From positions 1 to 64,000 of the forward strand of contig JAPPAV010000063.1 of NCBI GenBank assembly GCA_026705345.1: a DNA stretch of 64,000 bases, in the 5' to 3' direction. How positions within the stretch are numbered: the first letter of the stretch is position 1; the number at the start of each line of letters is the position of its first letter. Shown here one piece after another: positions 17,637-55,102 of the stretch. The translations under genes and the position numbers were made by a program. Under the pieces are notes generated by a model. It was not told the DNA's origin, searched no databases, and saw only the letters and a program-made list of their open reading frames with translations. Source of the DNA: Gammaproteobacteria bacterium (lineage in GTDB: Bacteria; Pseudomonadota; Gammaproteobacteria; Pseudomonadales; Azotimanducaceae).

Positions 17637-17640
<4 letters not shown>
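15343..17640 (+). CDS. SulP-family anion transporter with STAS domain and C-terminal cyclic-nucleotide-binding-like region (start uncertain; TTG 15343 or downstream GTG)
   Basis: Multi-TM SulP region (FIPYPVSSGFVAGTGGVACLVAF, GAPPGCMVVPTSMRSL), STAS (CVLLDFGGVSGFDFSSVNALGRF), C-terminal cNMP-like (ATGRPLAGVQMMTAGRGSVYDASGTRLGQCGPSDVVGSRSAF). Confidence 0.85.
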
Positions 17641-27884
<10,244 letters not shown>

Positions 27885-27899
27885 CCGCCAACGCAGCGG

Positions 27900-28829
27900 T
27901 CACCTTGCGGCCTGGTCGAGGAAATCGCGCAGCGCGGCAACGCACTCGGCGGGCTTCTCCAGTTGCAGGTAGTGGGTCGCTTCCGGCAGGAAGTCGTAGT
28001 CGACGGTGTCCATTTGCACGAGATCCAACGTCGGCAGGTAGGCGAACGGCAACGTCGGATCGGCGCCGATCACCTTGACATGGCACGGCAGGTTCTCGAG
28101 GTCGACCAGCCCCGCGTAGCTTCTTACGAACTCCACGATCCGCGCTTCGTATTCCGGCGGACAACGTAGTTCGAAGCAGTCGTCGTCGGCAGACCTTCTC
28201 AATGTCGTCGTCGCCATGAGTTCGTGTACCCCGGGAACGACGCGCAGGAAGCTCGTGGAGTAGCGGACCAACTCCTCGAAGTCCCGGCGCGTTTCGAACC
28301 CGTTGCTGCGCCTGCGCGTCCTGTGCGCGAGCAATTCGGCGAGTTCGTCGAACTGGGTCTCGCTGACGTTCGGCCGGTACAGCGGCGGATCGAACAGGAC
28401 GAGCGTGGAGAAGTCCGGTCCGTGCGTGGATGAAGGACTCGCCATGATCGACGACAGCGAGAGCAGCGCGATCAGCGCGGAAAGCGAGTGGTACACGCCG
28501 ACCCGGGGTTTCGGACCGAAGTGGGCATCGATGGCATCGAGAATTCGGTACAGGTCGCTGATGAACGTGGGGACGTTGTGTCTATCGATCGGGGTCAGCG
28601 AATTCCGTCCGTGATTCCGGATGTCGTAGACGATGACATCGAAGTCATCGACGAGCAGCGACCAGAACGGGTAGTAGAGGTCGATGGCCAGGCCGTTGCC
28701 GTGGCTGATAATCAGGCGACGCCCATCCGGGTTGCCGTATCGCCGCAAGGCCGTGACCGTGTCGTCCTCGAGGCGGACGTCGCACCTGGACAGCGGCTCC
28801 GGTATCTCCCAGGCAACTCTCGGCGTCAT
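27900..28829 (-). CDS. Alpha/beta-hydrolase, candidate trans-acting thioesterase for the PKS
   Basis: RLIISHGNGLAIDLYYPFWSLLVDDFDVIVYDIRNHGRN (HG oxyanion), nucleophile region RVGVYHSLSALIAL, C-terminal His DFLPEATHYLQLEKP. Confidence 0.85.
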   Translation of the reverse strand: MTPRVAWEIPEPLSRCDVRLEDDTVTALRRYGNPDGRRLIISHGNGLAIDLYYPFWSLLVDDFDVIVYDIRNHGRNSLTPIDRHNVPTFISDLYRILDAIDAHFGPKPRVGVYHSLSALIALLSLSSIMASPSSTHGPDFSTLVLFDPPLYRPNVSETQFDELAELLAHRTRRRSNGFETRRDFEELVRYSTSFLRVVPGVHELMATTTLRRSADDDCFELRCPPEYEARIVEFVRSYAGLVDLENLPCHVKVIGADPTLPFAYLPTLDLVQMDTVDYDFLPEATHYLQLEKPAECVAALRDFLDQAAR

Positions 28830-29596
28830 GGTTCCTTGTGTTCCAGCGCTAGTTCCCGGGCGACGGCAGCGGCGAAGTCGTCGTTACCGAGGTCGTCGAG
28901 CCGCCATGACACGCGTGGGCGGCATGGCAACTGCGGGAGCGGGGGCAGTTCGAAACGCGCCTGCCGCTGGCCGTCTCGATACATTGGCCGCGGAAGCTCG
29001 AATTTCGCGGTGTCCAGCGAGAAACCGGTCCCCAGCGCCTTGATAACCGCTTCCTTCAGTGTCCACAGCTTGAAGAACAGCCTCGTCTTGAGTTCTCCTG
29101 CGGCGGATGCCAATGCATCTTGTTCATCGGGCGTAAAGACCTTTCTGATCTCGCCATCGGGGTCATGGCGGAGATGTCGTTCTTCGATATCGACCCCAAG
29201 ACGGCCCTGTGGTGCAAACGCGATCAGTCCGTGATTGCCGCCGTGACTGACATTGAAGCTCGCCGACACCGGCGTTTTGCCTACGAACGCTGCGGGTTTG
29301 CCGTGCTCCAAGGCGACGAACCGGAGTTCCTCGTTGGTGCAACGCAGGCGCTCGCAGAGCATGCCGCGCAAAACCGCGCGACATAGCGCGAACTGCCGCT
29401 GGGGGCGTGGATGGCGATAGCGTCGCCAACGGGCCGTTTCCTCCGGATTCAGCCACTTCAAGGCAGCGGCTTCGCACGTTTCGTTGGGCCTCAAGTCAAC
29501 GTGAACGAGCTCCGTGCCGCCGACCGTGCCAAGTGGATGCCACCAAGGGTCGTCGACGCTTGCTGGATGGGAACTGACGCCGCGCGGTGATTCCAC
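28826..29596 (-). CDS. Sfp-type 4'-phosphopantetheinyl transferase
   Basis: SASFNVSHGGNHGLIAFAPQGRLGVDIEERHLRHDP...FFKLWTLKEAVIKALGTGFSLD; 4-nt overlap with hydrolase. Confidence 0.95.
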   Translation of the reverse strand: MESPRGVSSHPASVDDPWWHPLGTVGGTELVHVDLRPNETCEAAALKWLNPEETARWRRYRHPRPQRQFALCRAVLRGMLCERLRCTNEELRFVALEHGKPAAFVGKTPVSASFNVSHGGNHGLIAFAPQGRLGVDIEERHLRHDPDGEIRKVFTPDEQDALASAAGELKTRLFFKLWTLKEAVIKALGTGFSLDTAKFELPRPMYRDGQRQARFELPPLPQLPCRPRVSWRLDDLGNDDFAAAVARELALEHKEP

Positions 29597-38019: not shown

Positions 38020-41000
38020 TCAATCGAGCGGTACCCAGCGGATCGCGTCCGCGATCACCATCTCGCCGTCGGTGCGGTTCGACACTTCGAGACGGACGTT
38101 CGTCGAGACGAATTCGAACTCGTCGATCTTGTTCCAGCCGACCTCCGCCGAGGTCCCGTCGTAGGCGATCTCCACTTCCAGATCGTCGGCGACCACGGTC
38201 ATCGCCAGCGTGCCGAGGGCGCCGTACCATGGACCCCAAAGGGCAAGCCCGTGCCGGTCGGGCACGTGGTAGTCCAGTCGCCATCGACCCGGTTCCGGCA
38301 GTTCGGCGGCGAAGATGGCGACGGCGGAACCGTCACCCGGGATGGAACCAGCCACGGTATGCCGGTACTTGCCCCAGCCCGTGGCGATGGTGGCCCGGCT
38401 CCACTCCCCGGCGCGCTGGGTGGCCACCGGCAATCCCTGGTCGTATTCGCGCTGCCGACCCAGGCCGATTAGCGCCGCCACGATCCGACGACCGGTGTCG
38501 TCGGCACGGTCCTCCACCGAGAACCCGGCATCGAGATCGTCGATCACGATACCCTCGGAAGCGGGGGTCCATGCGCTTGGCTGCGAGCCGACAAGCGGTT
38601 CTCTGGGAGAATCCTCGGACGGTTCGATTCGGTCGAATTCTATTCGCACAGGCAGTCTGTTCAACGCCAGGTAGGGTTCCAACCAAAGTCGCTCCGGGGG
38701 ACGGGGTGTGACGATGCCCACTTCCACCGCTGCGTTGCCCGGAATGCGTATCGGATCGCTGGGCACCTGCCGGAAAAACTGATGATGGCTCACGCGAACG
38801 AGCCCTGGAACCGGCTCGCCGTTGCGGACGTGAAAACGGGTCTCGTAGCGCGGTCGACCCTCCCCATCGTCGGCTATGCGGACCACCCGGGCACGGGAGA
38901 CCATGAACCCCGGCAGCGCGGTTTCGTTCAGCCAGTCGCCGATCAGACCCGACAGATCGACGCCGACCGCGGATGCCGCCGCGTTGAAGTCCCGGGCGTC
39001 GAAGGTTCCGCCTGCATGGCGACGGCGCAACTCCGCGAGGAAGGCAGCCGAACGGCTTCTCCCCATTCCCTCGAAGAGCGACAGCACCGCAGCCCGGGCG
39101 CGCAATCCGAAGGCGCGGATCGCCTGGCTTGGATTGCTCTCGAGGTCCAACTCGACAAGCGAGGTACTGGCGGCTCGTTCCCACATCGACGGCACCACGT
39201 ACTGGTCCGTGACGAACCCCCGCCGGGTCTCGCTCTGGAACTGGTTCCGCAAGCCGCGAACCATCTGCGTGACCGTCGAACCGAAGCTCGCATCGGCACT
39301 GAAATCATGCGCGGTGTAGATCGTTGGGTTGATGACCCGCGAACTCGTCGTGTTGAGGATTTCGATGCCAAGTTCTTCGCAGACGTAGTCGAGCGCCTGC
39401 GCACCCGGACCATCGGCCGTGGTCTGGAGACCCACTAGGTTTCGCGCCAAGGCGCGGGAGGCGCTGCCGGGATCGATGAACGTCCTGAACAGGGTCTCGA
39501 GCCGCTGGACCTTGAATGCCTCGGTGCCGCCGGGGATTCCCGTCGGGAGGGAGTCGAATCGCCCTAGGTCCGAATAGGGGAAGCCGTGTTCTCGGAGCAG
39601 CAGCATGCCGGGTAACGCCATGGCGGTGTCAAGCCGCGAACCCCCGCCGTAGGTTCGAAGATAGGTGGGAATCTCGACGACGCTGAAGCCGTCGTAGGGA
39701 TAGGGGATACCCATCTCGACCGCCTCCTCGAAGATCCTCTCAAGTCGCGATTCGATGAGATCGGCGACGTCCGCGAAGTGGCGAAGTGGGCGCCGATGGT
39801 CGGGATGGAGCAGCAGCTCGAGTTCCACCCCGGCGGCTTCTATTGCATGGGGTTCGAAGCGCGACGCGAAGAGTCCGACTTCGCGCACCGGGGCAGCCGG
39901 ACGGAATCGGTAGCTGCCATCGTCCTGACGGTGACGCCGGCCGGGACCGGCGACCAGCCACCCGTCTGGCGCCGTGACCGTGAGATCCACCGTCGGAAAG
40001 TGTCCTCGGGGAACCCCGTCGATATTCGGCCCGGGAACCGGTAGCCAGCGCAGCCCGGGCATGAGCGCCACGTAGCGTTTCCCGAAGATGCCGCCCGCGG
40101 TACCTAGCCAGAGGATTCCATTGCGGCTCGACTCGCGCCGCCAGTCGACGGCGCTGTCCAAGTAGGCGAAATTCGCCTGGGGGATGCCGGATGCGACCAG
40201 GGCGAGCGTGGTCTTGGAGTCCTTCGTCAGGCCTTGGAGCGGTTCGACGACCAACAGGCCATTGCTATGCGTGAATGGCACTTCGGCGTTGCCGAGACTC
40301 ACCTCCGCGACGGCAAGGCCCGGATTGAAGCTGAACACGAGCGCGGTCGGATCGGCTGGCGCCAAGAGCCGCATCTCGATGTCGAATTCAAGAGCCGTGC
40401 CGGGATCGATTGCCACGGTGCCACGGATGTGCTCGACCGTGGGCCATCTGTCCGAGGGGATGCCCTGGTGGGAGGCGAGCCAAGCCTCGCGCACACGGAC
40501 GTCCTCGACGCAGTGGAGTACCACCACCCCCATGCCGCCAGCGCCCATTCCTGCCAATAGGACGCCAATGAGCAGGCGTCTGCCGGGCGAGCGACCGTCC
40601 GACCGTTCGTGCAGGGCTGCCGCCCAGACCACGAGCGCCCCGGCGACCAGCAGCAGTGAACCGCGCATCAGGTAGGTTTCGGCGCCGGCGAACCGGGGCG
40701 CCAGGTCCGATGCCAGGTTGTCGTGGATGTGGATCAGTGAAACCGCCGGCAGAAGGTACGCCGGGGTAAGCGCGAAACTCCACATGTGCAGGCCGAGTAG
40801 CGCCAAGGCAGCGATGGCGGTGGCCAGCCGTTTGCGCAGACCGACCGCCAGGAAGCCGACGACGGCACTCCACAGGAACAACGCCGGAATCGCGTCGACG
40901 AAGAGGAAGGTGAAGGTCGCCACGGGCTCGAGTGGGTCGACCCGCCAACCCAGTTCGCGCCCGAGTGTGCCGACCGTCTGAATGAGCAGTATCGCGCCGC

Positions 41001-41409
41001 CGAGGGCCGCGGCCACCACCAGCACGATGGCGCCAAGACGCGCTCCGATCACCGGGATGTTCGAAACGGGCCGCGAGTCGAAAACCTCGCTGATCCGTTC
41101 CCGTTCGTCACGGCTGCGCAGGTCGAAGGCTAGGAACACGATGGCGGCCATGAAGAACCACAGCACGTAGCTCTTGAAATAGGCCGATGCGAATCGGGGC
41201 AGGAGGTCACCGGCGGACAGGAACCCGGTCGACACCGAACTATGCAGGTTGGAGTAGTAGCCGTACGCCATGCCCATGACGCCGAAACCGAGGCCGACGA
41301 ACACCCAGGTCCGCGCCAGCCGTCGCACCGACCTCAGTTCGGCTGCAGCGACCGCGAGCCAGTCGTTCAGGCCGCGCCGAAATCCGCTATCAGTGATCGG
41401 CAGACGCAT
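38020..41409 (-). CDS. Paralog A: ABC-2-like multi-TM domain + M1-like (no HEXXH) periplasmic domain + golvesin-like C-terminal domain
   Basis: MRLPITDSGFRRGLNDWLAVAAAELRSVRRLARTWVFVGLG...YVLWFFMAAIVFLAFDLRSRDERERISEVFDSRPVSN; PYPYDGFSVVEIPTYLRTYGGG; GKYRHTVAGSIPGDGSAVAIFAAELPEPGRWRLDYHVP...GEMVIADAIRWVPLD*. Confidence 0.8.
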   Translation of the reverse strand: MRLPITDSGFRRGLNDWLAVAAAELRSVRRLARTWVFVGLGFGVMGMAYGYYSNLHSSVSTGFLSAGDLLPRFASAYFKSYVLWFFMAAIVFLAFDLRSRDERERISEVFDSRPVSNIPVIGARLGAIVLVVAAALGGAILLIQTVGTLGRELGWRVDPLEPVATFTFLFVDAIPALFLWSAVVGFLAVGLRKRLATAIAALALLGLHMWSFALTPAYLLPAVSLIHIHDNLASDLAPRFAGAETYLMRGSLLLVAGALVVWAAALHERSDGRSPGRRLLIGVLLAGMGAGGMGVVVLHCVEDVRVREAWLASHQGIPSDRWPTVEHIRGTVAIDPGTALEFDIEMRLLAPADPTALVFSFNPGLAVAEVSLGNAEVPFTHSNGLLVVEPLQGLTKDSKTTLALVASGIPQANFAYLDSAVDWRRESSRNGILWLGTAGGIFGKRYVALMPGLRWLPVPGPNIDGVPRGHFPTVDLTVTAPDGWLVAGPGRRHRQDDGSYRFRPAAPVREVGLFASRFEPHAIEAAGVELELLLHPDHRRPLRHFADVADLIESRLERIFEEAVEMGIPYPYDGFSVVEIPTYLRTYGGGSRLDTAMALPGMLLLREHGFPYSDLGRFDSLPTGIPGGTEAFKVQRLETLFRTFIDPGSASRALARNLVGLQTTADGPGAQALDYVCEELGIEILNTTSSRVINPTIYTAHDFSADASFGSTVTQMVRGLRNQFQSETRRGFVTDQYVVPSMWERAASTSLVELDLESNPSQAIRAFGLRARAAVLSLFEGMGRSRSAAFLAELRRRHAGGTFDARDFNAAASAVGVDLSGLIGDWLNETALPGFMVSRARVVRIADDGEGRPRYETRFHVRNGEPVPGLVRVSHHQFFRQVPSDPIRIPGNAAVEVGIVTPRPPERLWLEPYLALNRLPVRIEFDRIEPSEDSPREPLVGSQPSAWTPASEGIVIDDLDAGFSVEDRADDTGRRIVAALIGLGRQREYDQGLPVATQRAGEWSRATIATGWGKYRHTVAGSIPGDGSAVAIFAAELPEPGRWRLDYHVPDRHGLALWGPWYGALGTLAMTVVADDLEVEIAYDGTSAEVGWNKIDEFEFVSTNVRLEVSNRTDGEMVIADAIRWVPLD

Positions 41410-44400
41410 CGGGGGCAGTCGCGTCCGTGCCATCCAGCGGTACCCAGCGGATCGCGTCGGCGATCACCATCCCACCGTCGGTTTGGCTGGAGATTTCCAG
41501 GCGAACCTGCGTGGAGGCGAGCTCGAATTCGGCGACCTTGTTCCAGCCGGTCCTTGCAATCGCGCCGTCGAACGGTAGCGGTGTCGTCTTGCCGTTGGCC
41601 AGTAGCTTCATGTTGAAGGTGCCGAGAGGCGGGTAGGAACGGCTTCCCGAGGGGCGGTTGGGGATCGGGCAAGTAGAAATCCAGCCGCCAACGGCCCGGG
41701 GCGGGAAGGTCCGCCGCGAACACGGCCACTTGGCTGCCGTCGCCAGCCGGGGCCCCCGCCGCCGTATGCCGGTACCTGCCCCAACTGGTCGGATAGGAGA
41801 CGCGGTACCACTCGCCGGGCGTAGTGGAATGGCCTGGCAATCCCTGGTCGAGGTCCGCAGTGTTTCCGCCGAACGTCTGCCGGGACCCGTCCGCGACCGG
41901 GTGCTGCCCGCCACGGCGTTCGACCGCGAACCCGGAGTCAAGATCGTCGACGACAACACCTTCGACGGGTGGCAGCCAGACGCTCGGCCGCGCACCGGTC
42001 AGCGGCCTCGGAACCTGTGGGCTCGTTTCGTTGACGATGTCGATCCAGACCATGGCGCGGTTCAGCGCGAGGTACGGTTCCAGCCAAAGTTGGGCTGGCG
42101 CGTCGTCGGTGACCATCCCGAGTTCCATGGTCGTGTTGCCCGGTATCTGGATCGGGTCGGTCACCGTGGCTGGGTAGTCGCCCGTCGAAAGCCGCACAAG
42201 GCCGGGAACCCCTTCGCCGTTCCGGACATGCACGAGCGTCTGGAAGCGCACGTTTCCTTCGCGGTCGGCGATTTCGGAAACTCCCGCGTGGGATGTCACG
42301 AATCCGGGCAGTGCGACCTCGCTGATCCAGTCCCCGAGCAACGCCCCAAGGTCGATTCCGGCCTGGGCTGCGGCGTCGTCGAAGTCATCTGCGTCGAATG
42401 CCGCACCGGTGTGCCGGTTGCGTAGCGCCGCCAGGAATCTCGCCGTCGACTGGCGCCCAACGCTGTCGCCGATGGACCGAAACGCGGCCTCGACGCGCAA
42501 CGAGCGTGCCTCGACGGCGGTCCCGGGTTCACGTCGCATATCGAGATCCGCAAGCGACGCCCCGAGCAGACGTTCCCACGTGTTGGGGCGGCCGGGGAAG
42601 GGCAAGGTCGAACCGAATCCCGGGAGATAGGTTGGGGTCGATGCCGACAGAAAGCGAACCATGGGCATGAGGCGGATCCCGATGTCGTCTTCGACGTCGA
42701 ACCAATACACGCTGTAGGCGCGCGAGAACGGGATGCTGTCGTCGTCTAGCAATGATGCGGCAAGTTCCTCGACGATCTCGTCGAGGGCACTCGCCCCGGG
42801 GCCCATCGCGTGGGTATGGACCGTGGTGAGATTGCGGCCCACGCTCTCGGCCGCGTTGGCGCCCGGGTTTGGCGTGTGGAACCAGCCCTGGAGGATCACC
42901 CACTTCAGTTGTGCCAAGGACTCCGGATCGCTGGGAAAGGCGGGGTCGTCGTCGAACCTGAAGTTGGCGTACGGGAAGCCGTGCTCTTTCAGCAACAGCA
43001 CCCCCGGCAGTTCCATCACGGAGTCGAGTGCCCATCCCCCGCCGTACTCGCGCAGGTGCGTTGGAACCTCGACCAGACTGTAACCGTCGTAGGGGTAGGG
43101 GATGCCAAGCTCCTCCGCCTGCCCGAGCAACTCGGTGAGGCGTGACTCGAGCCGTTCGCGGGTGTCCGCCAGGGCGGCCACGGTGCCCAAATGGTCGGGG
43201 TGGAACAGGAGTTCGAGATCGACGCCCGCAATCCGGACCGCACGTCGTTCGAAACGTCCGGCAATGATCGCGGTCTCCGGCACGGGCGCGCCAGGACGGA
43301 ATCTAAACCGGCCTGCATCATCGGCTTCTCGACGTCCGGGTCCTGCGACCAGCCAGCCGTCGGGCACGGCCACGGACAGGTCAATGGTCGGCAGGTTGCC
43401 GCGCGATCCTCCATCGAGATTGGGACCGGGCACCGGCAGCCAGCGCAGTGCCGGCATGAGTGCGACGTAGCGCGAGGCGAAAACGCCCGCCGACGTGCCG
43501 AGCCGCAGGATCTGGTTGCGCACCGTCTTGACCCGCCAGTCGATGGTGCTGTCGAGGTAGGCGAAATCGGCATCGGGCAACCCTTCGGCCTGCACCGCCA
43601 AGGTCACCGGCGATCCTGCGGCGAGTGGCTCGGGCAGTTCGACGTTCAGCAGCCCGAGTTCGTGGGCATACGGCGTTGCCTCGTTGTCCACCCGCAATGC
43701 CGCGACTTTGAGCCCGGGGTTGAAGCTGAAGACGAGAGCGGGCAGGTCGATGTGGGGCGGTGCGGTGAGTTGCATTTCGAGGTCGAGACCGAGCTCCCGA
43801 CCGGGATTGATGTGCACAACGCCGCTGACGTGCCGCACTAGCGGGATCGGGGAGTTCCGCATTTGTTCGTGAGCCGCCAGCCAGGTGGCTCGCAAGTCGA
43901 GGTCGTCGATGCACCGTAGCGCCACGGTGCCGATGCCGCCGAACCCGAGGACGACCAACAACGCGCCGAATAGCCCTCGAGTCGTTCGGGAAACGCCGTC
44001 GGGACGCCCATGCAATGCCGCCGTCCATACCAGTAACCCGCCGCCAACCAGGATCAGCGAACCCCGGTGCAGATACGTTTGCGCGTCCGCGAACCGGGGC
44101 GCCAGGTCCGATGCCCAGTTGTCGTGGATGTGGAGTAGCGAGACGGCTGGCAACAGGTACACGGGAACGTGCGCCTCCGCCCACATGTGCAAGCCGAGCA
44201 TTGGCAATGCGACGATGGCGACGACGAGCCGGTTGCCAAGGACGGCAACGAGCAGCAGTACCATGGCGCACCACGCCACCAAGGCCGGAATAGCATCCAC
44301 AAGAAGGAAGGTGAGCATCGCCACGGGTTCGATGGGGTAGACGGCCCACCCGATTGCGCCGCCGACGGTGGCGGCGACCTGGAGCAGGACCGACACGGCG

Positions 44401-44804
44401 AAGAGCGCCGCCAGGGTCGCCACCGCCACACCGCAAAGCCGCCCGGCGAACAGGCCCAGATTCGACACCGGGCGCGAATCTAAGGCTTCGCGAATTCCGC
44501 TCTGCTCGTCCCGGTGACGGGTGTCGAACGCCAGGGATACAACGGCGGCCATGAACAACCAGAGCACGTAGTTGTTGATGTCGGCCCACGCAAACCGGGG
44601 CAGCAATTCGATCCGAGAGACGGACCCCGGGAAGCTGTGGTGGGAGTACGAGTGGAAGTAGAACGCCGATCCCACCAAGCCGGCGGCAAGCGCCACGATC
44701 ACCCAGGTTCGAGCAAGGCGCCGCAAGGTTCGGAGTTCGGCCAACGCGATGGCGAGCGATCCGCTGAGACTTCGCGTTCGACTCAATTCGATCATCGGCG
44801 TCAC
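41390..44804 (-). CDS. Paralog B of the same family; apparent frameshift near 41636-41668
   Basis: Main frame matches A/C/D until ...GRWRLDFYLPDPQPPLG, then homology resumes in another frame: YPPLGTFNMKLLANGKTTPLPFDGAIARTGWNKVAEFELASTQVRLEISSQTDGGMVIADAIRWVPLD...* ending at 41390. Confidence 0.75.
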
Positions 44805-44813
44805 TTGAACCGG

Positions 44814-47800
44814 CTAGTCCAGCGGTACCCAGCGGATCGCGTCGGCGATTACCATCTCGCCGTCAGTCCGGTTGGAAATCTCGAGACGCACCTCGTGCGT
44901 AGTGAATTCGAACTCGCCGATCTTGTTCCACCCCGTGTCCGCCGCGGCGCCGTCGAAGTCGACACGCGTCGGCTTGCCATCCGCGACGAGTGTCATGTCG
45001 AAGGAGCCCAGCGTGCCGTACATGGTCGTCGTACCCCATCCCATGTGCGCTTCCCGTTTCGGCACATGGAAGTCCAGCCGCCATCGGCCGGGCGTCGGCA
45101 ATCGGGCGCTGAAGGCCGCCACCTCGCTACCGTCGCCACTACGTGCCCCCGCCACCGTACGGCGATACTTGCCCCAGCCCGACAGGATACTGGCGCGGGT
45201 CCATTCGCCCGGTTCCCGATCCCACGCCGGTAGCCCTTGATCGAATTCGCGGGTGTCCGGTCCCGTCGATGCCGTTCCGCCGAGTCGCGTGTCCTCGCGA
45301 CGGCGCTCTACGGAAAAACCGGGATCGAGGTCGTCGATCACGATCCCCACCGGTGTTGCGGGCAACCACGTGCTCGATCGTGCGCCGACGAAGGGCTCGC
45401 GGGTCGCGAGATCGTGCTCGTCGAAGGCTCCCAGGTCGATCAGGAGGGGGATGCGGTTCAGAGCGAGGTACGGCTCGAGCAGGACAGTCTGCGGCGATTC
45501 GGCGCTCAGTATGCCGATTTCAACGGTGGTGTTGCCATCGAGGCGGGCCGGCTCGCTGCGAGGATTCTGCGGACCGATGCCCAAGGAAAGGCGAACGAGA
45601 CCCGGTGTCGGCTCGTCGTTCCTGACGTGCACGCGGATCTCGTATTGCGGTTGCGCATCGGCTTGCCGGGCGACGCGCTGGACTTCGGCGCGGGATGCGA
45701 CGAAACCGGGCAGCGCGGTGTCGTTCAGCCAGTCGCCGACCAACCGCTCGATATCGACACCCGTTGCCCCGACGGCTGCTGCGAATGCGGCCGCGTCGTA
45801 GGTGCTATCGCCACGACCGCGCAGGGTCGCCAGCAGCGTGGCGGTGCGATCCCTTCCCAGCCCGTCGGCAATCGAATGCGCGACGGCTTTGGCGCGCAAC
45901 GCGAACGCACCGATGGCCCGCCGGGGGTCCGTGCCGAAGTCCATCTCGGCGAGGGACGCGCCGAGTGCCCGCTCCCAAACCGACGATTGGGCAACGAAGG
46001 CCGGGCGGAATCCGGTCCAATCGCTGCTATCGCTCGCGAGTCCGTCGATCATCTGCACGACGGTGGCACCGAAACCGGCATCCGCGTTCGCCAAGTGCGC
46101 CGTGTACATCGATGGGTTGGCGAGCCTCAACGTGTTGGGGTTCCTGAAGAGTTCGCGAGCGAGTTCCTCGCCAACGTAGTCCAGCGCGTGTGCGCCGGGG
46201 CCGTCTGCTGCGCTGGCGAAACTCACGAGATTTCGAGACCACGCGCGTAATGCGCTGCCGCTCGTGAAATCGTTCGAGAACATCCATTCGAGCCGCTGGA
46301 TCTTCACCGCGTCCAATCCGCCGGGGTAGTTGGCGAACTGGCTTGGATCGTTGTAGAGCTGGACGTTGGCGTACGGGAAACCGTGTTCCTTGATGAGCAG
46401 GAGGCCGGGCAATGCCGATGTCGTGTCGAGCCAATGGCCGCCGCCGTATTCGCGCAGGTGGGCGGGGACCTCGACGACGCTGAAGCCCGTGTACGGATAG
46501 GGGATTCCAAACGCTTCTGCATCGCGGAAGATCTGTTCGAGGCGCGACCGCAAACGCTCGGTCACGTTCGCGTAGTAGTCGAGGTTGCGCAGATGGGCCG
46601 GGTGGAGCAGGAGCTCGAGCTCGACGCCGTCCACCTCCATGGCGCGGCGTTCGAAGCGCGCCGCGAAGAGCCCCAGCTTCGGCACGCCCGCCCCCGGGCG
46701 GAATCGGTACCGGCCGGTACCGAGCGTTTCGCGCCGGCCGGGTGCCGCGACGAGCCACCCCCCGGGGACGTCGACGGTCAGTTCGACCGTCGGAGCGTGC
46801 CCGCGGGATGCGTCGTCGAGGTTCGCGCCGGGGACGGGTAGCCAGCGTATTGCGGGCATCAGGGCAACGTAGTCGTTTTCGAAGATTCCGCCCGCGGTAC
46901 CCAGCCAGAGAATCGCGTTGCGGCTCGACTCGCGACGCCAGTCGACGACGCTGTCCAGGTAGGCGAAGTCCGGGTCGGGGATGCCCGAGGCTTGCAGGGT
47001 CAACCTGACCTCGGTTCCCGACGCCAACGGTGCGCCCGGTCGCACTCGGAGCACGCCGTCCTCGTGCTGGAACGACGTCGCGATGTCGTCGAGGCGCAGA
47101 CCGGCGACTTCGAGACCGGGGTTGAAGCTGAAGAGAAGCGTGGATAGATCCTCTGGTGCTTGCACCGACATCTCGAGATCGAGGCGCAGGTTTTGCCCCG
47201 GGTCGATGGCGACGCTAGCCGCCAGGTGCTCGATTCGAGGCACGGGTTCGTTGGCTGACGCTTGGTGGGCGGCGAGCCAAGCGTCACGCAACTGAATCCG
47301 GTCGATGCAGCCCACGACCACAGTCCCGATGCCGAGCGCCCCGAGCGCCGCTGGCAGGATACCGAGCAGCAACCGCGAGTTGCGCGAACGCCCGTCGGGT
47401 CGCGGGTACAGCGCGGCGGTCCAGATCGTAAAGCCAGCCGCGAGCACGAGCATGGAAGCCCGGTACAGGAAGGTCGCCAGGTCGGGCAGGCGAGGTGCCA
47501 AGTCCGAAGCCCAGTTGTCGTGGATATAGAGGAGCGACACGGCGGGAAGCAGGTAGCCGGGCACTTGCGCGAAGGTCCACATGTGGACGCCGATCAAACC
47601 GAGCGCCGCGACGGCGACGGCCAGCCGATTGCGCAGACCGGCGGCGATTGCGAACACGATGCCGCACCAGAGGATCAACCCGGGTACGGCGTCCAGGAAG
47701 AAGAACACGAACGTCGCCACCGGTTCGATGGGATCGACCCCCCATCCAACCGCCCGCCCGATCGTTCCCATGGCCTGGATCAGGAGCAAGACACCGAAAA

Positions 47801-48188
47801 GGGGCAGACAGATGGCGAGCACGACGGCGCAGAGCCGACCGCCGACCAATGCCATGTTGGAGAGGGGTCGCGAGTCCACCGTCTCCGCGACCCGTTCGCG
47901 TTGGTCCCGGTGGCGCAGGTCGAAGGCGAGGAAGACCATTGCCGCCATGAAGAACCACAGCACGTAGCTGTTGAAATACGCGGTCGTGAACCGCGGCAGT
48001 GCGTTTCCGACGTTCAAGGAGGAGAACGACGACGTCGCGTGCAGATAGGAGTAGTACCAATAGGCCGTGCCGACGACGACGATGCCGAGGGCCAGGAAAA
48101 CCCACGTGCGCACAAGCCGGCGCAGAGTGCGCAGTTCGGCGAGGGCGACCGCGAGCCATTCGAACAATCCGGGCGGGAGTGAACGCAT
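44814..48188 (-). CDS. Paralog C of the same family
   Basis: MRSLPPGLFEWLAVALAELRTLRRLVRTWVFLALG...HDNWASDLAPRLPD...PYPYTGFSVVEVPAHLREYGGGHWLD...GEMVIADAIRWVPLD*. Confidence 0.8.
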   Translation of the reverse strand: MRSLPPGLFEWLAVALAELRTLRRLVRTWVFLALGIVVVGTAYWYYSYLHATSSFSSLNVGNALPRFTTAYFNSYVLWFFMAAMVFLAFDLRHRDQRERVAETVDSRPLSNMALVGGRLCAVVLAICLPLFGVLLLIQAMGTIGRAVGWGVDPIEPVATFVFFFLDAVPGLILWCGIVFAIAAGLRNRLAVAVAALGLIGVHMWTFAQVPGYLLPAVSLLYIHDNWASDLAPRLPDLATFLYRASMLVLAAGFTIWTAALYPRPDGRSRNSRLLLGILPAALGALGIGTVVVGCIDRIQLRDAWLAAHQASANEPVPRIEHLAASVAIDPGQNLRLDLEMSVQAPEDLSTLLFSFNPGLEVAGLRLDDIATSFQHEDGVLRVRPGAPLASGTEVRLTLQASGIPDPDFAYLDSVVDWRRESSRNAILWLGTAGGIFENDYVALMPAIRWLPVPGANLDDASRGHAPTVELTVDVPGGWLVAAPGRRETLGTGRYRFRPGAGVPKLGLFAARFERRAMEVDGVELELLLHPAHLRNLDYYANVTERLRSRLEQIFRDAEAFGIPYPYTGFSVVEVPAHLREYGGGHWLDTTSALPGLLLIKEHGFPYANVQLYNDPSQFANYPGGLDAVKIQRLEWMFSNDFTSGSALRAWSRNLVSFASAADGPGAHALDYVGEELARELFRNPNTLRLANPSMYTAHLANADAGFGATVVQMIDGLASDSSDWTGFRPAFVAQSSVWERALGASLAEMDFGTDPRRAIGAFALRAKAVAHSIADGLGRDRTATLLATLRGRGDSTYDAAAFAAAVGATGVDIERLVGDWLNDTALPGFVASRAEVQRVARQADAQPQYEIRVHVRNDEPTPGLVRLSLGIGPQNPRSEPARLDGNTTVEIGILSAESPQTVLLEPYLALNRIPLLIDLGAFDEHDLATREPFVGARSSTWLPATPVGIVIDDLDPGFSVERRREDTRLGGTASTGPDTREFDQGLPAWDREPGEWTRASILSGWGKYRRTVAGARSGDGSEVAAFSARLPTPGRWRLDFHVPKREAHMGWGTTTMYGTLGSFDMTLVADGKPTRVDFDGAAADTGWNKIGEFEFTTHEVRLEISNRTDGEMVIADAIRWVPLD

Positions 48189-48194
48189 CGCCGA

Positions 48195-51100
48195 TCAGTC
48201 CAGCGGCGCCCAACGGATCGCATCCGCGATCACCATTTCGCCGTCGGTTCGGCTGGAGATCTCGAGTCGCACCGTGGTCGAGCCGAATTCGAACTCGCCG
48301 ACCTTGTTCCAGCCGGGTTCAGCCGCCGCGCCGTCGAAGGTGATGGGAGTCCTCTTCCCATCCGCGACGAGAGTCATGCCGTAGGAACCGAGCGAGCCGT
48401 AGGCCCGGGGCACGCCTTGGACGTCGGGTGCCGGATTCGGCAGGTGGTAGCCCAGTTGCCAACGGCCCGGCTGGGGCAACTCGGCTGCGAACACCGCAAC
48501 TTGAGATCCGTCGCCCGCGACGGCTCCAGCGACGGTGTGCCGGTACTTGCCCCAGCTCGAACCGAGCGTGGTTCGACTCCACTCGCCCGGTGTGCGCGTA
48601 TATGTCGGCAATCCCTGGTCGAGTTGCCGTTGATCGGGGCCTGCGTCAGCCGCATGCCAGGGCTTGAGATTGGCTGGATCGCCGCGTGTCTCAACCGTGA
48701 ATCCGCCGTCGAGGTCGTCGATGACGATGCCCCGAGGGTGCTCGGGCATCCAGGAACTGGGCTCGACACCGACAAACGGTTCGCGATCCAACGGGTTTTC
48801 TTCGTCGATGTCGTCATCGAGTGCAACCGGCACGCTCGTACGGTTCCGCGATAGGTACGGTTCCACCCAAAGCCGAATCGGCGGTCTCGCGGTTACCACT
48901 CCGATGTCCACCGACGTGTTACCGGGGATACGGATTGGCTCGGTCGAACGCCCCGTGAAACGAGGCGTCACGCGGATCAACCCGGCGACCGGCTCGTCGT
49001 TGCGAACGCTGACACGCGTCTCGTAGCGGGGCGCGCCGTCGTCGTCGGCGACGCGAACCGTCTGGGCGGGAGACGCGATGAAGCCCGGCAGCGCGGCGTC
49101 GTTTAGCCAGTCGCCGAGCAGGCGGTCGGGGTCGGCGCCGACCTCGGCGAGCGCTGCCGCGAGATCGTCAGCGTCGTACGCGGCACCGGTGTGGTGGTGG
49201 CGCAGTGTGGCCAGCAGCATGGCGGTACGCTCGTGGCCGAGACTGTCGAGGATGGCGTTGGCCGCGGCATCGCCGCGCAGCGTGTGCGCCTCCATCGCCC
49301 GTCTCGGATCCCGTTCCATGTCCATACCCGTAAGGGATGCTCCGATAACGCGTTGCCACACCAGGGGGTCTGAGTAGTCCAGCGAGTAGCGGAAGCCATT
49401 CCAGTCGGGTGACACGGGCGCGAGCAACGTCTCCGCCATTCCGGTCACAGTGACACCGAACCCGGCTTCGATGTCCCGGACGTGCGCGGTGAAGCTGCCA
49501 TCGATCGGCAGCACCAAGCTGGGATTGGCCAACAGCGCCTGGCCCAGTTTCTGACAGACGTGGTCCAACGCAAGGGCGCCAGGGCCGGAAGCGGACGTCT
49601 GGAAGGAAACCAGATTCCGGGCGACCCCCCTGAGCACGTGCGAGCTGTTCTCATCCATGCTCAATCCCAATTCCACCATCATCGCCAGCATCTCCGGTGT
49701 ACCTCGGTCACCGAACCGGGCGAAATTCACGTAAGGAAAGCCCGGTTCCTTCAGCAACAGCATGCCGGGCAATTCCAAGACGGTATCGAGCCGCCATCCG
49801 CCACCGTACGCCTGCAGGTGCGCGGGCACCTCAACCACCGAGAAGCCGTCGTAGGGATAGGCGATGCCAAGATGGGCTGGCTCGTTGACGAGCGACGCGA
49901 GGCGGGATCGGAGCGGTTCCACGATGTCGGCCAACACCCGGAGGTTCTTCAAGTGTCCGGGATGGAGCAGAACCTCGAACTCGACGTCCTCGAGTTCGAT
50001 CATGCGCCGCTCGAAACGTGCCGCCAGTAGGGCCACCTGGGACACGGGCGCCGGTGGACGGAAGCGAAACCGGCCGTCGGCGTTGGCCACACGCCGCCCC
50101 GGGCCCGCGACCAGCCAGCCGTCCGGAACGTCAACCGTTAGATCGATGGTCGGAAAGTGGCCTTGGGATGCCCCGGTGAGATTCGGTCCGGGCGCGGGCA
50201 GCCAACGCAGACCCGGCATCAAGGCGACATAGCGCCGCTCGAATATGCTGGCTGCCGTCCCGAGCCAGAGAATCTGGTTTCGAGCCAACTCGGCCCGCCA
50301 ATCGACGGCGCTGTCGAGATAGGCGAAGTCCGGGTCGGGTATGCCGCTCGCACTCAGTTTCAGCGAGGCCGGTGATCCACTGGAGAGCGGCATGGTGGGC
50401 TCGACCGTCAACAGGCCCGACTCGTGCCGGAAGGGCGTCTCCCGATCGTCGAGCCACAGCGCCGCGACGCGAAGACCGGGATTGAAGCTGAACAAGAGGA
50501 CGTCGAGGTCTTGCTGCGACGGCGTCTCGATCAGCAATTCGAGATCGAGGCGCAACTCCCGGCCTGGATCGATGTCGACGTCCCCCGCGACGTGCCGCAG
50601 CAACGGGATCGCCTGGCCAGAGGCTGCTTCGTGTGCGACGAGCCAGGTACCGCGCAACTGGAACTGGTCCACGCATCGTGCAACCACGGTGGCGAATCCG
50701 GCGACGCCGAGGATTGCGAACACAGCACCCGACAACCAACGCCGTCGGCTCGAACCCCCGTCCGGGCGTCTATAGGACGCGGCTGCCCACGCCACGAAAG
50801 CCGCTGCAAGTAGGAGCATCGACGTGCGCTGCAGCACCGTTGGCGCTTCGGGAAATCGTGGCGCCAGGTCCGATGCCCAGTTGTCGTGGATGTAGTGCAG
50901 CGAGACGGCGGGAAGCAGATAGGCGGGAACGAACGCGTAGCACCACATGTGCGCCCCGAGCAACGCTAACGCGGTTACGGCGACAACCAGGCGATTGGGC
51001 ACCACGACGGCGAGGAACGCCACGATGGCGCCCCACAGTGTCAACGCCGGGATGCTGTCGACCAACAGCAACATCGCCGCCATCACGCCTTCGAGCGGGT

Positions 51101-51563
51101 GGCCGGCCCAACCCATCGCCCTGCCGACGGTTGCAGAGATCTGGATCAGGAGCAGGGCGGTGACGAGAACGACAAGGATGGCGGCCACCGTGGCGAACAA
51201 TCGGCCGCCGAGCAGGACCAGGTTGGAGAACGGGCGTGAATCCAGCGCTTCCCCAATGCGTTCGCGTTCGTCCTGGCCGCGGGCGTCGAACGAAACGAAG
51301 ACGACGGCAGCCATGAAGAACCAGAGGATGTAGCTCGCGAAATACGGCGTTGCGAACCTCGGCAGGATCGTCGCGTCCAAGTCCGGCATGCGGTTTTGGA
51401 TGTAGGAGTAGTAGACGTACGCGGCGGCAATGACGGCGATGCCGAGGAAGGCGAAGACCCAGAACCGGGCCAGCCGCCGCAACGATCGGAATTGGGCGGC
51501 CACGACGGCGCGACAGTGGTGCAGACCTTGCCGGAAGTCCGAATGGGTCACTACATCGAGCAT
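48195..51563 (-). CDS. Paralog D of the same family
   Basis: AVVAAQFRSLRRLARFWVFAFLG...YILWFFMAAVVFVSFDARGQDERERIGEALDSRPFSN...PYPYDGFSVVEVPAHLQAYGGGWRLD...GEMVIADAIRWAPLD*. Confidence 0.8.
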   Translation of the reverse strand: MLDVVTHSDFRQGLHHCRAVVAAQFRSLRRLARFWVFAFLGIAVIAAAYVYYSYIQNRMPDLDATILPRFATPYFASYILWFFMAAVVFVSFDARGQDERERIGEALDSRPFSNLVLLGGRLFATVAAILVVLVTALLLIQISATVGRAMGWAGHPLEGVMAAMLLLVDSIPALTLWGAIVAFLAVVVPNRLVVAVTALALLGAHMWCYAFVPAYLLPAVSLHYIHDNWASDLAPRFPEAPTVLQRTSMLLLAAAFVAWAAASYRRPDGGSSRRRWLSGAVFAILGVAGFATVVARCVDQFQLRGTWLVAHEAASGQAIPLLRHVAGDVDIDPGRELRLDLELLIETPSQQDLDVLLFSFNPGLRVAALWLDDRETPFRHESGLLTVEPTMPLSSGSPASLKLSASGIPDPDFAYLDSAVDWRAELARNQILWLGTAASIFERRYVALMPGLRWLPAPGPNLTGASQGHFPTIDLTVDVPDGWLVAGPGRRVANADGRFRFRPPAPVSQVALLAARFERRMIELEDVEFEVLLHPGHLKNLRVLADIVEPLRSRLASLVNEPAHLGIAYPYDGFSVVEVPAHLQAYGGGWRLDTVLELPGMLLLKEPGFPYVNFARFGDRGTPEMLAMMVELGLSMDENSSHVLRGVARNLVSFQTSASGPGALALDHVCQKLGQALLANPSLVLPIDGSFTAHVRDIEAGFGVTVTGMAETLLAPVSPDWNGFRYSLDYSDPLVWQRVIGASLTGMDMERDPRRAMEAHTLRGDAAANAILDSLGHERTAMLLATLRHHHTGAAYDADDLAAALAEVGADPDRLLGDWLNDAALPGFIASPAQTVRVADDDGAPRYETRVSVRNDEPVAGLIRVTPRFTGRSTEPIRIPGNTSVDIGVVTARPPIRLWVEPYLSRNRTSVPVALDDDIDEENPLDREPFVGVEPSSWMPEHPRGIVIDDLDGGFTVETRGDPANLKPWHAADAGPDQRQLDQGLPTYTRTPGEWSRTTLGSSWGKYRHTVAGAVAGDGSQVAVFAAELPQPGRWQLGYHLPNPAPDVQGVPRAYGSLGSYGMTLVADGKRTPITFDGAAAEPGWNKVGEFEFGSTTVRLEISSRTDGEMVIADAIRWAPLD

Positions 51564-51639: not shown

Positions 51640-52362
51640 ATGGTCAAGCGCTTTTCTCGTGCCTGCGGCAGGGTGGACTGTTTTGGCCAGTTGGGCGACA
51701 GACTGGACGTGGTCGAGCTGAACGAGAGCTTCAATGTGTTTCTGCCGTTGTCGGCGGTGTGGGAACGACTCCGCCTGCCCTTCGAGAGCTCGGCGGGAAG
51801 ATGCCGCGTACCCGGGTTTCCGAGCATCGACGGCGATCCCGGCTGTCTCCTCCTAGTGGAAGACGACGAGCCGCAGAAGAGACTCACCGGTACCAAGGCG
51901 GACCCTCCCTGTGCCGGAACAAGGATAGACATCGAGATCGGGCCGGCCAACGCCAGCGGCTGGCCAACCCGGTTGAGCCTGGCCCAATCCGGCTTCGAGG
52001 CCCCGCTTGCCGATCTGCCGGACTTCCTGAACGCGCATTGGCGGCGCATCGCTGCCGACTTCCGCCTGTACGTCGAACACGGCGTAACGGCGCCGCCGGC
52101 AGCGTGGCGCGCGAGCCTCGGGGCTACGACCCGCGAGACGCCGACGGGTCTCGCGGTCAGGGACGTGGAGCCGGAAGCCTATGCCGACCGTTGCGGAATG
52201 CAGGAAGACGACATCCTGCTAACACTGGCCGGCGTACGCATACTCGACACGGCGGAACTGTGGACGGTGCTCTCGATGCTGGCGCCCGGCGACCTGGCGA
52301 CGGCTACTTGGGTCAGGGACGGTGCCGTGCTCGAGTCGGAGCGTGTTCTCGGAGGTTATTAG
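51640..52362 (+). CDS. SRPBCC (AHSA1-like) domain + C-terminal PDZ domain protein
   Basis: LNESFNVFLPLSAVWERLRL...HWRRIAADFRLYVEHGV; PDZ: GLAVRDVEPEAYADRCGMQEDDILLTLAGVRILDTAELWTVLSMLAPGDLATATWVRDG. Confidence 0.65.
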   Translation: MVKRFSRACGRVDCFGQLGDRLDVVELNESFNVFLPLSAVWERLRLPFESSAGRCRVPGFPSIDGDPGCLLLVEDDEPQKRLTGTKADPPCAGTRIDIEIGPANASGWPTRLSLAQSGFEAPLADLPDFLNAHWRRIAADFRLYVEHGVTAPPAAWRASLGATTRETPTGLAVRDVEPEAYADRCGMQEDDILLTLAGVRILDTAELWTVLSMLAPGDLATATWVRDGAVLESERVLGGY

Positions 52363-53330
52363 CCGCGCGGCCCGGAATGGCACGACCAGTGGTCCGCGAT
52401 CTCGAGCATCTCCCGGGCTTCTTCCTCGATCCCGATTTCGAGCAAGTGCAACCCGGTGGACACCCGCTCCATGAATCCCCATTGCCAAATCGCCCGTTCG
52501 TCGACTGCGCAAAGTTCGGCAAGGTAGGCGCATCGTCCCCGTCCGCGCCGTACCGGCGCATCGCGCAGTTCAGTGCTCCAACCCCGCATCGGCACAGCCA
52601 GATCGCAGGCGGGTTCGGCTAGGAGCCCGCCGGGATCAACGAATTTGCATGGCGTCCCGGGCAGGTAGTCTTGGCCGCGAACGAGGAGCAGGTTCTGCTC
52701 GTGCGCATCGGCATGCACGAGGACCGTGGTCGCTTCCGTGTGCGCATCGGCGCGCTCGGCAGCGAAGTCGAGCGCCCGGTCGCGGGTGCGTCGATCGCAG
52801 GGCCGGCCAAGCCGTTGCCAAGAATGAACGATGAAGTCCCCGAGCCAGTTCGCCTTCCACGCCCCGGTGGGCAACGAATGGTTCTCCACTGGCGTGCGCC
52901 AGAGTTCCCTGAGCGTGCGGCAGGTGGCGTCGATTTGATCTGCGACCGACCATCCAAGGTCCGCGATGCAAGGGCCAAGCCGCTCCATCAGCAGCGCCCG
53001 ATGGTCGTCGGACCGGGCGTAGAGCGAGGCCACTCCTCGACCCCGGGACAATTCGTAGGCCCGCGCCTCGCCTTCGAAGTCGTCGTCTCCCGGCATCCTG
53101 ATCTTCAAGACCGCGTCGGTGCCATCTTCCCGTCGAACGTCGAGCACGAGGCTCTCGGAACCACCGGGCAGGGCGTCACCGATGCCTAGATTCCAACGAT
53201 CCGCCAACGCGGGGACCGCTTCGTCCAGGTCCCGCATCCAACGGCGTCCCGAGTCGCCGGCCACAACGGCCCGGCTGCGTGCGGCGTCGGGCAACTCGCT
53301 CTGCCATTGACCTGTCTGCCTCATTCGCAT
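52359..53330 (-). CDS. Aminoglycoside/hydroxyurea-type antibiotic kinase (APH(6)-like)
   Basis: TTVLVHADAHEQNLLLVRGQDYLPGTPCKFVDPGGLLAEPACDLAVPMRGW (HxDxxxxN / DPxG). Confidence 0.8.
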   Translation of the reverse strand: MRMRQTGQWQSELPDAARSRAVVAGDSGRRWMRDLDEAVPALADRWNLGIGDALPGGSESLVLDVRREDGTDAVLKIRMPGDDDFEGEARAYELSRGRGVASLYARSDDHRALLMERLGPCIADLGWSVADQIDATCRTLRELWRTPVENHSLPTGAWKANWLGDFIVHSWQRLGRPCDRRTRDRALDFAAERADAHTEATTVLVHADAHEQNLLLVRGQDYLPGTPCKFVDPGGLLAEPACDLAVPMRGWSTELRDAPVRRGRGRCAYLAELCAVDERAIWQWGFMERVSTGLHLLEIGIEEEAREMLEIADHWSCHSGPRG

Positions 53331-54159: not shown

Positions 54160-54292
54160 TCTCGACCGGCGCGTCGCGAGTGGTCGAATTCGCACATCCC
54201 GATGGGGTCATCTCTGTAACGGCCCGAAGGCGTTTTGGCGGATGCTGTTCCGGTCGTCCGTTTGCGAGTCGTTTTCGTGGTACTTTCCTACC

Positions 54293-55102
54293 ATGCAGCC
54301 AAGAACCCTGCCGGTCGAGCCGGCCGTCGTGACGCCGCGGCCAAGGCCGTCGATGCCCCTTTCCGTGATCTACGCGGATGCGCTCTATCGGCCCGTCCCG
54401 CCCGTCGAATACGACGACGAAGGCTATCCGGGTCCCGACGGTAGAGTGTCCGAGAGCACCCGCCACGCCGAGGCGTCGAACTACTGCTTCGACGCGCTCC
54501 GGGTTTGGTTCAGAGACCAGCCCGGCACCTTGGTGGCAAACGACCTCGTCATGCTCTTCGAGAAAGGCAACCCAAAGGCCGCGCTCTCGCCCGACCTGAT
54601 GGTGGTCTTCGACGCCGGCAATCCCGATCGCTCGTCGTACAAGGTTTGGGAGGAAGGCGACGCCATGCCTGCCTTTGCCTTGGAGGTCCTGTCGAAGCGG
54701 ACTTGGCGCAAAGACGTTCGGGTGAAACCAGGGCTCTACGCGGCGTTGGGGATTCGCGAGTTCTGGCTCTTCGAGCCGTTCGAGCCGCGCTTGGCGGGCT
54801 ATCGTCTGCACGGCCGCGAGTACGCGCGCATCCGCTCAACGGCAGATGGCGGCTATCCGAGCCGGGTATTGGGCCTGGACGTCATCGTGAAGAACGACCG
54901 GATTCGCTTTCGGAACGCGGCGTCGGGCGAAATCCTGCCCGACCCTATTCAATCGGATGCGATGCGTGTCGACGCGGAGGAGCGGGCCGAATCGGCAAAG
55001 GCGCGGGCCGAATCTGCAGAAGCACGCGCCCAGTCGGCGGAGGACCGGGCATTGCAGGCCGAGCGACGAATCCGGGAGTTGGAAGGACTGCTCAAACGTT
55101 AG
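54293..55102 (+). CDS. Uma2-family (DUF820) endonuclease-like protein with C-terminal coiled coil
   Basis: LSPDLMVVFD...PAFALEVLSKRTWRKDVRVKPGLYAALGIREFWLFEP; tail RAESAKARAESAEARAQSAEDRALQAERRIRELEGLL. Confidence 0.88.
   Translation: MQPRTLPVEPAVVTPRPRPSMPLSVIYADALYRPVPPVEYDDEGYPGPDGRVSESTRHAEASNYCFDALRVWFRDQPGTLVANDLVMLFEKGNPKAALSPDLMVVFDAGNPDRSSYKVWEEGDAMPAFALEVLSKRTWRKDVRVKPGLYAALGIREFWLFEPFEPRLAGYRLHGREYARIRSTADGGYPSRVLGLDVIVKNDRIRFRNAASGEILPDPIQSDAMRVDAEERAESAKARAESAEARAQSAEDRALQAERRIRELEGLLKR

Follow-up and report, generated by a model that had tools for sequence, protein, structure and literature searches.

A tandem array of orphan ABC-2-type permease subunits with pseudo-M1 and golvesin-like ectodomains, and the single ATPase that they may share

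The window analysed here is a stretch of 64,000 nucleotides from a gammaproteobacterium of the Azotimanducaceae (assembly GCA_026705345.1, contig JAPPAV010000063.1, positions 1 to 64,000), and its subject is a minus-strand array of four tandem paralogs, genes A to D, at positions 38020-51563. Comparison with related proteins shows that these genes are orphan members, as distinct from core-operon members, of a family of ABC-2-type permease subunits that has expanded and whose ectodomain is predicted to consist of a pseudo-enzyme domain of the M1 aminopeptidase type and a golvesin-like domain. The family is a little-known group of bacterial membrane transporter subunits; searches of an incomplete open-access library found no published description of the family, nor any of an amplification of it in sponge symbionts. 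With the exception of two ambiguous genomes, every genome examined holds one dedicated ABC ATPase gene, which lies in a core operon or just cut off from it. There is a roughly even chance that the many permease heads, with their diversified and apparently non-cleaving clefts, share this one ATPase in trans.

The four open reading frames (ORFs) are co-directional, stand in the order D-C-B-A and encode proteins of 1122-1145 amino acids; the GC content of the window is 65%. Gene A (48195..51563) encodes 1122 residues, gene B (44814..48188) 1124, gene C (41367..44804) 1145 and gene D (38020..41433) 1137, all on the (-) strand. Pairwise protein identity is 49-56%, with B at 56% to A, and the other genes reach BLAST-type scores of 1080-1250 bits against A, far above chance expectation. 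A preliminary description of the sequence had reported tandem paralogs with shared motifs and tiny gaps or overlaps. The paralogs and the quoted motifs are present in the ORFs, and the gaps between A and B (6 bp) and between B and C (9 bp) are indeed tiny, whereas the 67-bp overlap of C and D is a by-product of a frameshift. When gene C is compared with its ortholog in the related locus L032, 14 bp are found to be deleted from it at about 41653/41654, which leaves the final ~80 residues, in its golvesin-like end, out of frame. The native end can still be read in another frame at 41432-41689, and gene C alone among the four lacks a Golvesin_C match in Pfam.

L032 is the closest public record to the array (VXYL01000068.1, contig C41 of genome G004, “Gammaproteobacteria bacterium isolate SB0670_bin_10”), and this near-identical locus was the only one returned by a related-loci search of genome contigs. 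Bins with SB numbers probably come from sponge metagenomes. On this independent contig the four genes have the same order, with 88-96% protein identity per gene (95% for gene A). The ratio of nonsynonymous to synonymous substitution rates (dN/dS) of the array genes against it is 0.24-0.32, with gene A at 0.29; judged by this comparison, the array genes evolve under purifying selection. The ortholog of D is clearly more diverged than the others, at a synonymous divergence (dS) of 0.30 compared with 0.08-0.09 for A-C, and the G004 copy of D is frameshifted near residue 845. Recombination or decay is a possible explanation for these two peculiarities.

In a FastTree phylogeny with SH-like support, A-D and their G004 orthologs form one clade. 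Gene B clusters with a copy from genome G009 and gene C with a copy from genome G011, and the duplications therefore predate these species. The G009 copy that clusters with B has the same divergent neighbour gene as the array. The preliminary description had considered that the array could be a recent identical duplication or an assembly artefact. This is ruled out by the same array on an independent contig, by the age of the paralogs at 49-56% identity and by orthologs elsewhere, which occur as single copies in other species.

Each protein begins with an ABC-2-like membrane domain (in gene A residues 1-296, 50676..51563 on the (-) strand). Hydropathy and loop charge across an alignment of 98 sequences predict approximately seven transmembrane (TM) segments with the N-terminus inside and everything past residue ~297 in the periplasm. 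Family members carry a single ABC-2 half of ~300 amino acids by hydropathy and alignment, and the ectodomain makes up ~70% of the protein. Since the predicted topology places this ectodomain in the periplasm, the “surface” location proposed earlier is unlikely. The proposal of an ABC-2-like domain fared better: hhalign aligns it to the ABC-2 halves of canonical ABC-2/M1 fusions at E 1e-6 to 3e-6, and Pfam gives a weak ABC-2 membrane match in gene C, as well as weak matches of several wider-family members to ABC2_membrane models.

The central part of the protein (in gene A residues 318-835, 49059..50612 on the (-) strand) is an M1-aminopeptidase-like domain. Pfam and NCBIfam do not detect Peptidase_M1 in the family, nor is it among the families matched by 35 members, so that profile-profile comparison was required to recognize the relationship. 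The comparison set consisted of ABC-2/M1 fusions from other genomes of the class, in which Pfam finds ABC2 and Peptidase_M1 and which have the motif HExxHQWW. The family aligns with these fusions in hhalign at 97.4% (E 9e-12), colinearly over the membrane and M1 parts, and the core members alone reach 98.4% (E 5.5e-15). The ectodomain by itself gives E 2.9e-7 to the M1 part of the fusions and 1.7e-7 to a standalone M1 protein, at 93-94% for the domain in gene A, while five column-shuffled controls gave 0.1%.

Predicted structures lead to the same fold. Foldseek searches with two AlphaFold2 models, of full-length A and of the M1 part of B, returned M1 aminopeptidases as all of the top 50 PDB chains. 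The models are poor (pLDDT 47 from 8 sequences for A, 44 from 7 sequences for B) and were used for Foldseek only; with TM-scores of at most 0.37, the matches were taken as fold recognition only. When PDB sequences were searched with a profile, no genuine match emerged, only a globin at E 0.21. The kinship to permease/aminopeptidase fusions that had been suspected is thus borne out, with due regard to the low confidence of the models, and a check of the middle domain by profiles returned M1 instead of an unrelated fold.

The domain is nevertheless predicted to be a pseudo-enzyme, in which the HExxH zinc motif is lost. Aligned over its full length, the family shows an RGVARNLV-type sequence where the fusions have the zinc helix HEVAHQWW; in gene A the aligned stretch is residues 641-670 (49554..49643, (-) strand), with HExxH replaced (RGVARNLVSF...). 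HExxH is absent from the zinc helix in all of 98 near-full-length copies of the family, and none of 16 near-full-length copies from further loci of genus g8 has it at any position. Stray HExxH strings in five copies all lie outside the zinc helix and were attributed to chance. When the ectodomain is aligned by itself, local profile alignments do not extend as far as the zinc helix, so this stretch appears to be either diverged past recognition or remodelled. Of the peptidase-like domain in the preliminary description, the M1 fold stands and the active peptidase does not. The reason to regard the array genes as active ABC-permease/M1 aminopeptidases would be that they are homologous to canonical fusions, which have Peptidase_M1 and HExxH. 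Such activity is most improbable, given that no copy keeps the zinc motif and that Pfam matches Peptidase_M1 in none of the 35 members.

The cleft is also where the orphans differ most from one another. Conservation of residues 565-720, the M1 cleft region, is 0.36 in orphans and 0.50 in core copies, compared with 0.39 and 0.42 for the membrane domain, in unequal sequence sets of which the core set spans more genera. This faster divergence of the peptidase region agrees with an earlier remark that the peptidase regions had diverged. The most diversified region in orphans is the zinc-helix and cleft region, residues 606-765 of A.

The protein ends in a domain resembling the golvesin C-terminus (in gene A residues 990-1117, 48213..48596 on the (-) strand). 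Genes A, B and D match Golvesin_C (PF25275) at 26.7-28.9 bits, A having the lowest score, and so fall below the curated cutoff of 31.6, while two core members exceed it at 38.0-40.3 bits. Matches in 33 of 35 members of the wider family support the name that the domain had been given.

The fourfold amplification seen in the window is real, although it is only a small part of a genome-wide family. Counts of this family rest on sequence searches of mostly fragmented genomes, in which some matches are pieces of one gene. The genome of the window (5.07 Mb) has approximately 17 copies, four in the window and ~13 on other contigs. Within its genus, g1, there are 1-22 permease matches per genome, some counts being inflated by fragments. 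In genus g8, of the same taxonomic family, genomes of 2.5-2.8 Mb hold 23-31 matches. One of these, G175, has 31 matches genome-wide, and a single cluster in it contains nine permeases that are 30-67% identical to one another, an example of the multi-copy arrays for which a search of other genomes had been suggested. Matches occur in 9 of the 37 genera sampled in the taxonomic family and, at full length, in a genome of another family (G546); a sample of the phylum gave none in 399 genomes apart from the window's own. In the tree, g8 forms a separate clade with its own core and its own orphan copies, and multiplication therefore happened at least twice.

The ancestral setting of the permease is an operon with the conserved gene order ABC ATPase, permease, membrane-fusion protein (MFP) and two resistance-nodulation-division (RND) proteins, although some loci stop before the last gene. 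This core operon is seen in the single-copy genomes G005, G010, G014 and G015, in several other genera and in one genome of another family. Its MFP matches TIGR01730 above cutoff. The two RND proteins are of the AcrB type and stay below every NCBIfam cutoff for a named pump. In the genome of the window, the core operon lies on contig C112 and contains two tandem permeases. The array has no ABC ATPase beside it; the dedicated ATPase is elsewhere in the same genome, in the core operon.

The number of dedicated ATPases does not follow the number of permeases: there is one per genome against 1-31 permease matches, with G003 and G046 as exceptions. A single match to the dedicated ATPase is found in 14 of 16 genomes of genus g1, and in another genome of this genus (G002) the gene occurs as two complementary pieces on two contigs; in G003, the remaining one of the 16, it was not found. 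Exactly one is found in 14 of 14 sampled genomes of genera g7 and g8. G046, of genus g32, has one dedicated ATPase and a second match at 37%. The largest array seen (G175:C15:30374-66000, loci L137 and L138) runs on one strand through eight permeases, the ATPase, a further permease, the MFP and the first RND gene. In the single-contig genome G013, the ATPase has been retained without an adjoining permease, and the permeases lie elsewhere.

Some loci show the operon rearranged. At L106 (G013:C1:4083000-4096000) the dedicated ATPase is cut off from the permeases, with a recombinase-like ORF in the region; this arrangement is a natural test of function in trans. At L098 (G008:C23) and L115 (G007:C87), MFP and RND genes related to those of the core operon lie divergently beside an orphan permease, and an ATPase-permease pair is on another contig. 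The operon seems to have been split or duplicated in these two genomes.

The ATPase of an ABC-2 transporter docks on a coupling helix, which is formed by the cytoplasmic loop that joins TM2 to TM3. The corresponding putative docking segment in gene A, residues 94-122 (51198..51284, (-) strand), has the family consensus DxRxRDxRERIAEVLDxRPxSN. In core copies its conservation is 0.64 against a membrane-domain mean of 0.42. In orphans it is the best conserved membrane segment, at 0.53 against a mean of 0.39, and the orphans therefore appear to retain whatever binds there.

This loop bears on a different view of the orphans, in which they no longer transport. They would then act without ATP, as periplasmic receptors or scaffolds for peptides and glycans of the host or the envelope, and the ABC-2 domain would merely anchor them in the membrane. 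The absence of an ATPase beside the array and most orphans agrees with this view, as do the large ectodomain and the purifying selection on the genes. Under it, the putative docking loop would be expected to relax, and instead it is the best conserved membrane part in orphans; moreover, the permease array of G175 continues straight into the ATPase operon. The receptor or scaffold role is thus a doubtful, though serious, alternative.

If the ATPase is shared, a mechanism can be outlined. Orphan permeases would form dimers, either among themselves or with the core permease, and the single ATPase would dock on them at the conserved TM2-TM3 loop. Peptides or peptide-like ligands may bind in the dead M1 cleft without being cut, the peptide nature of the ligand being suggested by M1 ancestry, and the golvesin-like domain may bind glycans or the envelope. 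ATP hydrolysis would drive a ligand-specific step (export, extraction or release), after which the RND pumps of the core operon could plausibly carry the ligand outwards. Because the zinc-helix and cleft region is what has diversified most in orphans, different paralogs would set different ligand specificities. In its fullest form, this amounts to one engine with many heads: a single ABC ATPase and the RND pumps would energise up to ~30 exchangeable heads, with dead clefts retuned for peptide recognition. So complete a scheme is offered tentatively. A repertoire of exchangeable heads on a shared ATPase explains more than the heteromeric envelope complex suggested at first.

Several observations weigh against a shared ATPase serving a repertoire of binding clefts. 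In G003, a fragmented genome (250 contigs, 98% complete) with 21-22 permease matches, the dedicated ATPase was not found. The poor structure models (pLDDT 47 and 44) leave the zinc-helix region dependent on a weak alignment. The genome of the window holds 84 ABC-ATPase-like matches, so the orphans could use another of these, and several copies look broken, so that some orphans may be decaying.

The last two points each support a separate explanation. The 84 matches would allow unrelated ABC ATPases from elsewhere in the genome to energise the orphans. This is unlikely: behind the dedicated ATPase, the next best match is no more than 41% identical, and among the loci examined no other ATPase recurs in an operon that contains orphans. 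The broken copies (gene C of the window, D of G004, one on contig C84 of G007, and others) may be real or sequencing errors. Such frameshifted genes are what would be expected from non-adaptive birth and death of a duplication-prone gene without any functional repertoire. This explanation is quite improbable in view of the dN/dS values of 0.24-0.32, of orthologs that different species have retained at distinct loci, each clade with neighbours of its own, and of independent expansion in two genera, retained even in genomes of ~2.5 Mb.

The ABC-2 permease/M1 aminopeptidase fusions (~1200 amino acids; L067, L068, L084) are the nearest known relatives in plan, with an ABC-2 domain followed by an M1 domain and an ABC ATPase of their own. 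The ATPase encoded next to L067 and L068 and the dedicated ATPase described here are related, with 38-39% identity. The canonical fusions have two ABC-2 halves, as seen in L068, and an intact HExxH, whereas this family has one ABC-2 domain and no zinc motif, adds the golvesin-like domain and mostly lacks an ATPase neighbour. According to Foldseek and hhalign, the middle domain has the same fold as PepN, ERAP1 and IRAP; compared with them, this family is fused to a membrane domain and has lost the catalytic motif.

A precedent for a shared ATPase is MceG, which serves Mce1 and Mce4, two lipid importers (PMC9947336). There, as is proposed here, one ATPase serves several membrane assemblies whose genes lie at separate loci. 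The present family differs in being of the ABC-2 type, in having up to ~30 permeases and in that sharing is deduced from genomes. The core operon also resembles MdtABC-like RND efflux systems in its two pump subunits and one adaptor, but also includes an ABC ATPase and the permease described here.

One gene recurs as a neighbour of the array. It lies divergently at 51640..52362 (+) and encodes 240 amino acids with an unusual domain pair, a PDZ-like C-terminus and an N-terminus that looks SRPBCC-like by eye; it is also found beside the relatives of the array in G004, G009 and G011. Other orphan clades have recurrent neighbours of their own, a BlaI-type repressor and a SHOCT-like protein. Elsewhere in the window, a large polyketide synthase ORF (17598-27884, (+) strand) has matches to two KS and two AT domains, DH, methyltransferase, ER-like, KR and ACP. 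An alpha/beta hydrolase and a phosphopantetheinyl transferase lie beside it at 27900-28829 (-) and 28826-29596 (-). An APH(6)-like aminoglycoside/hydroxyurea phosphotransferase at 52359-53330 (-) scores far under its NCBIfam cutoff, and a Uma2-type gene is found nearby at 54242-55102.

If the heads do share one ATPase, the system would be an ABC transporter with a combinatorial set of parts. It would then be directly testable how ABC-2 transporters can exchange specificity modules on a common motor, and why genomes of ~2.6 Mb spend ~4% of their DNA on one family (31 matches of ~3.5 kb in G175). The core operon hints at a coupling between ABC transporters and RND pumps that has been little explored. 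A whole family of dead M1 peptidases would have been kept under selection, presumably as binding modules. In the fullest form of the scheme, the organisms would have in this family a diversifying stock of receptors or exporters in the periplasm, whose ligands might be peptides from a host or from competitors.

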